From Aliikangiella coralliicola (GTDB lineage: Bacteria > Pseudomonadota > Gammaproteobacteria > Enterobacterales > Kangiellaceae), in the NCBI RefSeq assembly GCF_007004725.1, contig NZ_ML660165.1, positions 496,001 to 560,000 of the forward strand: a stretch of DNA of 64,000 nucleotides, read 5' to 3'. The notes under the pieces were generated by a model. That model searched no databases. It saw nothing but the letters and a program-made list of their open reading frames with translations, and was not told where the DNA came from. Both the position numbers and the translations under genes were made by a program. Shown here in pieces: positions 775-21,781 of this stretch; the first letter of the stretch is position 1, and each line of letters begins with the position of its first letter.

Positions 775-846
775 ATTCTCCCGTTTTTAACTTTTTAAAA
801 TATCTTCTGAGCTTTCACAAAAGCACCGATAGCTAAATCCAGGCAT

Positions 847-880
847 AAAAAAAGGCCACAGATTTAATCGGCGGCCTTTT
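847..880 (-). terminator. Attenuator-type intrinsic terminator in the cysS leader
   Basis: On the minus strand an 8-bp stem AAAAGGCC (880-873) pairs with GGCCTTTT (857-850) around a 15-nt loop and runs into seven T residues (853-847). It sits only about 75 nt upstream of the cysS start codon on the same strand and about 13 nt after the stop of a Cys-rich mini-ORF, so its natural role is to stop leader transcripts before cysS. I see no larger gene upstream on this strand that would need a terminator here. Confidence 0.75.
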
Positions 881-892
881 GTTGAATATTGA

Positions 893-934
893 CTATTTAC
901 AATATCGTTCACACGAAAACATGCCGCAACTCAT
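893..934 (-). CDS. Putative cysteine leader peptide (13 aa) of the cysS attenuator
   Basis: The frame reads M-S-C-G-M-F-S-C-E-R-Y-C-K-stop: three Cys codons (TGC, TGT, TGT) in 13, ending 13 nt before the attenuator stem and followed by cysS. By analogy with leader-peptide attenuators (his, leu, ilv, pheST), ribosome stalling when Cys-tRNA is scarce would change leader folding and allow readthrough. The GCGGC inside the leader (927-923) is complementary to GCCGC overlapping the 5' terminator arm (875-871), a possible antiterminator or competing pairing. The Shine-Dalgarno is poor. A five-codon frame starting at 947 ends in an ATGA overlap with this start, so coupled initiation is possible. The function is inferred from composition and position. 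Confidence 0.6.
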   Translation of the reverse strand: MSCGMFSCERYCK

Positions 935-960
935 CGCGACAACAGCATGTGTTTTGAATA

Positions 961-1247
961 AATAGTTTAGTTTTTAGATAAATCATTTTTATCGTTTCCG
1001 TTTTCATGGTTTGAGAATATACCAATATCTACCAATAGTTCAAGCTTTAAAATAATATTGCTATCTCGACGAAATTTACACTGTGAATGTCCTCTTTTTA
1101 CTACTTTTAGTCTCACAATTACTACCGATAAAAAGCTGAAAATCGCTATCTTGTTATCGATTGCCAAGGCAATCAAATGATGGCAGCCACCCAAAATAAA
1201 CAACATCGTTAATCAGGTTGCCAATTGCCAGTAAGTGAAAATTTGTT
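961..1247. other. Intergenic region between the cysS leader and the next gene
   Basis: AT-rich spacer that must carry the divergent promoters of the cysS leader (minus) and the secreted-protein gene (plus). I see no convincing -35/-10 pair, RNA or repeat. An open frame on the minus strand at 967-1206 has no recognisable family or ribosome-binding site and is not called. Confidence 0.4.
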
Positions 1248-1261
1248 AAGAGGAAGAATGA

Positions 1262-20761: not shown

Positions 20762-21781
20762 CTAGTCAGTTATGAGCTTGTATTTGTCTAGCTCTTCGCG
20801 AGTCATCACATGTACATTTTCAAATGACGCGGCTTCGATGGTGAAGAAGTAAAATTCGGGCCCATTGGTTTCACCAAGAATATCTCTGAAATAGGTAAGC
20901 TGCGCACCATGAGCAGAATGATTTCGACCAAGCTGGTCAGCCGGTTTTCCATCAACACAACACCATGAATGTACGCCTAACTTACCGCCTGTTTCATATT
21001 TGCGTTGATAGCCAGCCGCATACAGATCAACACCGCCAGAATAAGCTTCACCATCAGCAGGCATAAAAGTTGTCAGTTGAGCGTTACGCACCAGACGTCC
21101 AGTGTGCATATTAATTGCGTCATTAACCGAACCATCCACGTCTTTTAATACAATAGTTCTTACCTCAGGATTGCGCATAATTAGCTCGTCAATTTGAATA
21201 TAAGTATTCGTGCCAAGTGAACCAGACAGGTTTGCACTATCGCCATTAATTTCCAGCACGCTATTTCCACCACTAATTAACGCATCGTTAAATACTAACC
21301 TCGCCATATAAGTTCCCTGAGTTTGCTCATCAGTCATTGTCGCCTGATAAATTATGTTATCCCCATCTTGTGTAGTTTGCACCTGGCTGCCAGTTAATGT
21401 GCGGGTAACTGTGTTGGAGAAATTCTCAATATCAGAAGTATCACCTTCCAATAAGGTTAGCGTCTCAATCGGCTTTTCCGCCTCAAGATCAAAACCAATA
21501 AGCGCAAGGCCTAACTCATACTTTGCGTAAATGACTTTATCCTGTATGTCAAAGTCAACCAGGCTGATAGGGTAAGTAACCCCATCGAACTCAAGTTGTA
21601 ATTGGTCTCGTAACTGCTTAAATTGAGTGATGTAATTGGGAATATCAGAAGGCTGAATTAAATGGACAATTTGATTTTGTGTAACAGGTGTCGTGGTTGA
21701 TGTTGTACTATCACTTTTGTTGCTGCTGCACCCGCCCAAAACTAACAAACTAATCAGGGAAAGAGAGGCTAAGATTTTCAT
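20762..21781 (-). CDS. Lipoprotein with a ClpP/SDH-like hydrolase domain
   Basis: A 339-aa lipoprotein (lipobox L-G-G-C, Cys18, followed by a Ser/Thr-rich linker). Residues 40-170 are uncharacterised. From about 190 the pattern matches periplasmic ClpP/crotonase-like proteins often misnamed alpha/beta hydrolases: I-V-L-K-D-V-D-G-S-V-N-D-A-I-N-M-H-T-G-R-L-V-R, then A-Y-S-G-G-V-D-L-Y-A-A-G-Y-Q-R and K-L-G-V-H-S-W-C-C. By analogy Ser248 and His271 would be the catalytic Ser and His. A membrane-tethered peptidase-like role is possible but activity is unproven. Ordinary monocistronic setting after the RstA-like gene. Confidence 0.75.
   Translation of the reverse strand: MKILASLSLISLLVLGGCSSNKSDSTTSTTTPVTQNQIVHLIQPSDIPNYITQFKQLRDQLQLEFDGVTYPISLVDFDIQDKVIYAKYELGLALIGFDLEAEKPIETLTLLEGDTSDIENFSNTVTRTLTGSQVQTTQDGDNIIYQATMTDEQTQGTYMARLVFNDALISGGNSVLEINGDSANLSGSLGTNTYIQIDELIMRNPEVRTIVLKDVDGSVNDAINMHTGRLVRNAQLTTFMPADGEAYSGGVDLYAAGYQRKYETGGKLGVHSWCCVDGKPADQLGRNHSAHGAQLTYFRDILGETNGPEFYFFTIEAASFENVHVMTREELDKYKLITD

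Follow-up and report, generated by a model that had tools for sequence, protein, structure and literature searches.

A probable cysteine-codon attenuator upstream of an auxiliary cysteinyl-tRNA synthetase gene in γ- and β-proteobacteria

Why does a short reading frame with adjacent Cys codons, followed by a transcription terminator, precede a cysteinyl-tRNA synthetase gene in Aliikangiella coralliicola? The stretch of DNA analyzed here (the window, 64,000 nucleotides) begins inside this gene, whose 258 N-terminal codons occupy positions 1-774 of the minus strand, with the ATG at 774, and which continues beyond the window start. The full product (456 amino acids) matches the TIGR00435 model with 413.6 bits against a cut-off of 340. 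The same genome carries a second cysS on contig 7, which shows 44% identity to the window copy over the 258-residue query and 40% across the full protein. A midpoint-rooted tree of 152 proteins, built by a quick method, places this other copy with canonical cysS copies. The divergent copy in the window is named cysS2 in this work and is regarded as an auxiliary cysteinyl-tRNA synthetase (CysRS) gene. We conclude, with a probability of about 0.88, that this auxiliary synthetase is under the control of a ribosome-mediated transcription attenuator whose signal is charged tRNA-Cys. Direct support for this assignment comes from the anatomy of the locus, its conservation, the covariation of the terminator and of the first hairpin in γ-proteobacteria, and its presence beside a divergent second cysS.

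All parts of the element lie on the minus strand. A promoter-like site at 1016-1043 (TTGAAC-16-TATATT, with the TG of an extended -10 box) is a consensus match, and the stretch holds four such sites against 2.3 expected in shuffles. Transcription would start near 1009, and the ATG at 986 is therefore the likely start codon of the leader; an alternative in-frame ATG upstream, at 1007, is possible. The leader reading frame (909-986) encodes 25 residues, MIYLKTKLFIQNTCCCRDELRHVFV, and ends with a stop codon at 911-909; its Shine-Dalgarno sequence is modest, with a duplex energy of -3.5 kcal/mol. Residues 14-16 are encoded by TGC TGT TGT (939-947), the putative regulatory codons, which have equivalents in the Cys runs of other cysS2 loci described below. 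The last of these codons lies inside hairpin 1:2 (922-941, with a UGUCGC/GCGGCA core; -9.4 kcal/mol for 947-921), and the equivalent hairpin covaries in γ-proteobacterial relatives. The core of segment 2, GCGGC at 923-927, is the candidate antiterminator strand, and the opposite strand would be the core of segment 3, GCCGC at 871-875, within the 5' arm of the terminator. The intrinsic terminator itself (847-880; -15.9 kcal/mol) consists of a stem-loop at 880-850 and a T tract at 853-847, its stem has a covarying equivalent in the relatives, and 72 nt separate the T tract from the ATG of cysS2.

From this arrangement we infer translation of the leader, ribosome stalling and read-through. RNA polymerase would start near 1009 and a ribosome would translate the 25-residue leader. 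With plentiful Cys-tRNA, the ribosome would pass the Cys triplet and reach the stop codon at 911-909, covering segment 2, so that the terminator (segments 3:4) would form and cysS2 would stay off. With scarce Cys-tRNA, the ribosome would stall at 947-939 and segment 2 would pair with segment 3; this pairing would block the terminator and allow cysS2 to be transcribed.

An attenuator with a cysteine leader peptide in front of cysS had already been proposed in a first-pass annotation of this DNA, and the proposal is upheld by the Cys-run reading frames and terminators at 64 of 67 cysS2 loci. Its choice of leader has to be replaced. The 13-codon frame that it singled out does exist (893-934; ATG at 934, MSCGMFSCERYCK, stop at 895-893) and has three Cys codons, two of them within the last six codons. 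The layout of frame, terminator and cysS was also described correctly, including the seven T, with measured distances of 12 and 72 nt in place of the 13 and 75 nt given. The competing structure that it had suggested is likewise possible, since GCGGC (927-923) is complementary to GCCGC (875-871) of the terminator 5' arm. The Cys triplet in the overlapping frame was overlooked, as was the status of the gene as a second cysS copy. The idea that the 13-codon frame is the sensing peptide draws on its three Cys codons in 13 and its closeness to the terminator, but it is scarcely credible: the frame has no Shine-Dalgarno pairing (+1.5 kcal/mol, versus -3.5 kcal/mol for the frame at 986) and none of the 63 other leaders has a corresponding frame in this position, L130 alone among them having a three-Cys reading frame further down, across the terminator. 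Moreover, its stop codon lies only 12 nt from the terminator, and a ribosome ending there would probably land on the terminator 5' arm. We therefore rejected it as the leader.

A protein scan of genome contigs yielded 313 relatives of CysS2, of which the best 80 were kept, and Cys-run leaders were found upstream of cysS2 in Vibrio, Pleionea, Paraburkholderia, Trinickia and Massilia. We scored a leader wherever a reading frame with at least two adjacent Cys codons lies 60-170 nt before an intrinsic terminator. By this rule, leaders precede 64 of 67 cysS2 loci, a set composed of the window, Pleionea, 27 Vibrio loci and 38 loci from Burkholderiaceae or Massilia psychrophila. The adjacent Cys runs are 2-5 codons long, and 35 of the 67 loci have a run of at least three. 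These 64 loci are not 64 independent events, because the set was drawn from leader-bearing groups and many of the loci are close kin. A Vibrio leader reads, for instance, MTLITTSTQILCCCCKYLIYGRFSVPII, the Pleionea leader reads MNMIIQTNRAISATSQCCCCERLRPLVC, and the Burkholderiaceae leaders resemble MIASILSRPHSSRACCRSLPRGACV, each followed by a stop codon. The three exceptions are a Vibrio coralliilyticus plasmid locus (L124) without a terminator, a Trinickia mobilis locus (L149) without a leader, where the sole terminator-like site lies 310 nt upstream, and L206, which retains the terminator and TGT TGT and has no in-frame start codon. One Vibrio cysS2 (L181, G271:C229) has an in-frame TGA at a contig end, and its leader is intact.

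None of 37 canonical cysS loci has a leader by the same rule, although two of them have a Cys-pair reading frame without a terminator. Among 75 other CysS2-type loci (the rest of the best 80 relatives together with L016 and L210-L212; two of the 75 have less than 330 nt upstream), the rule found two leaders. The one at L065, from a Burkholderiales metagenome-assembled genome, reads MSSPHIRTPLAPCRSIATCCRVLRGVSST up to its stop codon and has a terminator of -22 kcal/mol, while that at L090 passes marginally, with a poor stem. As a background, we counted reading frames with a Cys run and a terminator in 2.29 Mb of strand outside the 64 leaders: runs of at least two occurred 54 times (0.012 per 500 nt) and runs of at least three occurred 5 times (0.0011 per 500 nt). 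This low rate for runs of at least two bears out the earlier claim that the Cys codons exceed chance expectation. Short reading frames with a run of at least four Cys numbered 33 in 2.57 Mb of strand, and 29 of these lie upstream of cysS2. On the basis of the background scan and the canonical controls, a chance reading frame was rejected as an explanation of the leader. Elsewhere in the window, at 21717 on the plus strand, a short reading frame with CCCC lies opposite the 5' end of a lipoprotein-like gene (20762-21781, minus strand) and looks like chance.

The picture is more varied in the family of Massilia psychrophila, which we take to be Oxalobacteraceae. Among the 30 loci examined in this family, 21 have a Cys-run reading frame, with a terminator behind it at 4 loci and without one at 17. 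The terminators of L231, L232 and L236 have energies near -23 kcal/mol, and that of L220 is weak (-13.6 kcal/mol). Nine of the 21 frames have Cys runs of three to five. In L219, L222 and L225 the last four or five codons are all Cys and no terminator was detected; ten Cys are present in the leader of L220 and nine in that of L223. The other 9 of the 30 loci have no Cys-run reading frame, and two of these (L233 and L238) show a strong terminator behind a short frame with one Cys. A bare Cys pair without a terminator is weak evidence, since two of the 37 canonical loci have one. Because 17 of the 30 loci lack a terminator behind the Cys run, one mechanism does not fit all loci, and these leaders would have to act in another way, through translation or Rho, unless the rule missed their terminators. 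At three relatives of L065 (L059, L089 and L103) a strong terminator occupies the corresponding position behind short reading frames with few Cys and no Cys pair; we read them as worn or different leaders related to that of L065. The first-pass annotation had named retention of the terminator with loss of the Cys codons as the pattern that would speak against attenuation. Both are kept at 64 of the 67 loci, and the pattern is approached at L206, L233, L238, L059, L089 and L103, where the terminator is retained but the leader is broken or has fewer Cys codons.

Covariation was measured in 22 of the 28 γ-proteobacterial leaders, leaving out two identical sequences and four of the V. penaeicida type with a longer spacer. 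The combined score of hairpin 1 and the terminator was 0.225 compared to 0.115 in shuffled alignments, and none of 500 shuffles scored as high. Covarying pairs include 9:24 (UA in 14 leaders, CG in 6) and 87:102 (CG in 13, UA in 9). In the β-proteobacterial set (35 of 36 leaders, M. psychrophila left out) the terminator scored 0.155 compared to 0.099 in shuffled alignments, again with none of 500 as high, and pair 82:101 is GC in 21 leaders and AU in 14. The predicted antiterminator has an invariant CGGC/GCCG core in the γ set, and its pair 24:87 is AU in 9 leaders, GC in 7 and unpaired in 6. Its covariation score of 0.107 exceeds 499 of 500 shuffles, although controls slid by +2 and +3 reach 0.113 and 0.116. 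The 35 β leaders showed no covariation of the antiterminator. When the antiterminator duplex was compared with 200 shuffles, the γ leaders had a mean z of -2.7 (20 of 28 with p≤0.05) and the β leaders a mean z of -0.2 (3 of 36); in this duplex test the window's own duplex was not stronger than shuffled ones (p=0.145). A lenient folding measure, by which pairing appeared in 64 of 64 leaders, was replaced by a stricter one with shuffled controls. Under the stricter measure, γ leaders pair 10.6 arm bases compared to 7.9 in shuffles (at least five in 28 of 28; p≤0.1 in 8 of 28), and β leaders pair 3.3 compared to 7.1 (4 of 36). With the ribosome placed at the first Cys codon of the window leader, upstream pairing takes up 12 of 14 arm bases before segment 4 has been transcribed (p=0.017; 1 of 60 shuffles pairs as many). 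The putative antiterminator is supported in the γ set and is not supported by the controls in the β set.

To assess specificity, we used a covariance model (R1) of 22 γ leaders, the window's sequence included. In the 7.04 Mb host genome, where 150 of 1995 first-look candidates were scored, R1 matched this site alone at E≤1 (E=2.4e-9). Of 223 Vibrio genomes searched, 26 carry cysS2, and in each of these R1 matches immediately before the gene; 22 of these matches exceed 70 bits, most of them from sequences that built the model. Any match at E≤0.01 occurs in 65 of the 223 genomes, and the four strongest matches elsewhere than at cysS2, the ones inspected, are hairpins that resemble terminators and have no Cys runs; these four were rejected as further targets of the element. 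Searches of window positions 780-1260 gave nothing above the Rfam gathering scores, and a T-box covariance model had no match there up to E=1. The sole attenuator-type Rfam leader near the element was a sub-threshold Thr_leader (17.6 bits against a cut-off of 55). In nine relatives only the cspA thermoregulator passed, at an unrelated place.

The phylogenetic distribution of cysS2 is patchy. At a threshold of E≤1e-110, it occurs in 26 of 227 Vibrio genomes, in 41 of 398 genomes of the Trinickia family, presumably Burkholderiaceae (30 loci examined), and in 49 of 245 genomes of the M. psychrophila family. Only 4 of 369 sampled Gammaproteobacteria have it, including the window's own genome, and the other three have no Cys-run leader. 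The host and Pleionea belong to the same family, which we take to be Kangiellaceae. Plasmid records with some cysS number 623 (503 from Klebsiella); eight of these copies have more than 50% identity to cysS2 and the rest lower, and seven of the eight were examined. In the protein tree, the leaders of the 67-locus set sit at three places inside the wider CysS2-type group: Vibrio, Pleionea and the window (29 rows, 28 with a leader), Burkholderiaceae (37 rows, 35 with a leader), and M. psychrophila, which clusters with L065 and its relatives. Leader loss and repeated gain would fit this tree equally well.

Copy number was checked in 22 genomes. Two cysS genes are present in G059 and in G040-G053, the genomes of 14 loci that include leader-bearing Vibrio, Pleionea, Paraburkholderia, Trinickia and Massilia. 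Only the CysS2-type gene is found in seven genomes (G054-G058, G060 and G061), six of which lack a leader by the rule, the seventh being the marginal L090. The leader thus tends to accompany spare status, with the second copies of Iodobacter, of the Janthinobacterium type and of L077 as exceptions without a leader. It is not strictly tied to that status; L065, which also has a leader, lies outside the 22 genomes.

Beyond the window, genes for DUF2000, fatty-acid hydroxylase and glyoxalase-like proteins follow cysS2 on the same strand (L010:7756-9335), and the first two overlap each other. Perhaps the four genes form one operon under the attenuator. As to conserved operon partners, only the fatty-acid hydroxylase recurs among seven neighbor proteins profiled in four other species, and in V. 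penaeicida its gene is convergent to cysS2. A companion tRNA-Cys was sought at nine loci, which contain no tRNA.

Several known systems share parts of this design. In the trp, his and pheST attenuators of enterobacteria, a stalled ribosome chooses between antiterminator and terminator; the present element is alike in this switch and differs in its codons and target gene. Streptomyces coelicolor trpRS1 is under attenuation by Trp codons. It is likewise a second, divergent synthetase gene beside a housekeeping copy, with a leader containing codons for its own amino acid. The differences are in amino acid and phylum, and the trpRS1 enzyme is resistant, whereas CysS2 is known here from sequence alone. 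The drug in question for this second TrpRS is indolmycin, according to a review summary (PMC9437257). The leaders of actinobacterial cys operons, as outlined in PMC1262725, have Cys runs near the stop codon and no conserved terminator, as do those Massilia-family leaders whose final four or five codons are Cys; in contrast to the latter, they precede biosynthetic genes and not cysS.

For cysS itself, the motif uORFC-8-2 has been described as an attenuator with tandem Cys codons, with 145 examples, exclusively from Rhodobacterales in the account given in PMC8632094, so that this kind of element is already known. That account agrees with ours in placing a short reading frame upstream of cysS, with tandem Cys usually at residues 14-15 (14-16 in the window), a first stem with the Cys codons and a final stem with a U run, for which its authors proposed attenuation. 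In contrast to that α-proteobacterial order, the leaders described here come from γ- and β-proteobacteria and have runs of 2-5 Cys; the host belongs to the Pleionea family, and its cysS2 clusters with those of Pleionea and Vibrio. At the loci typed here, the controlled gene is also a divergent, auxiliary cysS2 that accompanies a canonical cysS. Among 4227 Rfam families there was no match named uORFC-8-2, and the likeness rests on the published description. The first-pass annotation cited no case of cysS attenuation in Gammaproteobacteria; such control has a published precedent in cysS of Rhodobacterales (PMC8632094). Beyond that motif, the literature searched, some of it in extract, yielded no report of an attenuated auxiliary cysS2. 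As far as searched, the γ and β members, the runs of up to five Cys and the control of an auxiliary, patchy cysS are new.

What the auxiliary enzyme is for depends on what the attenuator reports, and uncharged tRNA-Cys cannot distinguish missing cysteine from missing synthetase activity. The chances are about even that CysS2 is a reserve enzyme, produced in response to inhibition of, or damage to, the housekeeping CysRS. The same attenuator might instead signal cysteine shortage, in which case CysS2 would be a CysRS of high affinity or a stress form, able to capture cysteine when little of it is available; the signal would be the same for both shortages. We consider cysteine shortage rather unlikely, however. 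The target is a synthetase gene and not one for cysteine synthesis, R1 found no second site in the genome at E≤1, and the reserve role is likelier because more synthetase would help less against simple cysteine lack. A divergent and patchy CysRS is, furthermore, the pattern of inhibitor-resistant second synthetases described in PMC9437257. A spare for zinc starvation, that is, a CysRS working without zinc, is very improbable. The window protein has the zinc ligands C30, C221, H246 and E250, whose identity we take from E. coli CysRS, and all four are conserved throughout the 140 CysS2-type rows, in which some loci appear under two identifiers, as well as in 14 of 14 canonical proteins. This conservation weighs against a zinc-free spare, even though low-zinc spare synthetases such as ThrRS T2 are known (PMC9437257, Table 1).

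The reserve role may be narrower still, with CysS2 an inhibitor-resistant CysRS that spread as self- or cross-resistance to a natural CysRS inhibitor and the attenuator as its inducible control, which we hold possible at somewhat less than an even chance. On plasmid pOCN014 of V. coralliilyticus, cysS2 adjoins an NRPS/PKS cluster with a phosphopantetheinyl transferase, the serine O-acetyltransferase EpsC and an MFS exporter. A single cluster neighbor is an anecdote, however, and there is no hint of a biosynthetic cluster among the seven immediate neighbors profiled in V. rotiferianus, V. penaeicida, Pleionea and Paraburkholderia madseniana. The pOCN014 locus (L243, NZ_CP009266.1 196000-240000) has no leader by the rule and is itself a candidate self-resistance gene. 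The active-site motifs also differ from the canonical ones, with HIGN and an altered 10-residue motif in the window CysS2 compared to HIGH and GGSDLQFPHH in canonical CysRS, but these differences are present in CysS2-type proteins with or without a leader. Second copies of SerRS, IleRS and TrpRS are listed as resistant in a 2022 review (PMC9437257), the table of which gives no auxiliary function for CysRS, and the literature searched contained no natural CysRS inhibitor. Given the intact zinc ligands, the motif differences, the pOCN014 neighborhood and the known cases of second TrpRS, SerRS and IleRS copies that confer resistance (PMC9437257), we would favor a reserve enzyme against CysRS inhibition.

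We suggest, tentatively, that a second CysRS, inducible and insensitive to inhibitors, is present in scattered Vibrio, Kangiellaceae and Burkholderiales, and that its Cys-codon attenuators have arisen more than once. If so, there would be an undescribed class of natural CysRS inhibitors, with the NRPS/PKS cluster of pOCN014 as a candidate source. Some bacteria withstand synthetase inhibitors by inducing a second, divergent synthetase once charging fails, as in the case of TrpRS and indolmycin summarized in PMC9437257. A patchy and sometimes plasmid-borne cysS2 with a Cys-codon leader makes the hidden stress directly testable, and the native leader could serve directly as a reporter of any compound or condition under which cysteine charging is blocked.
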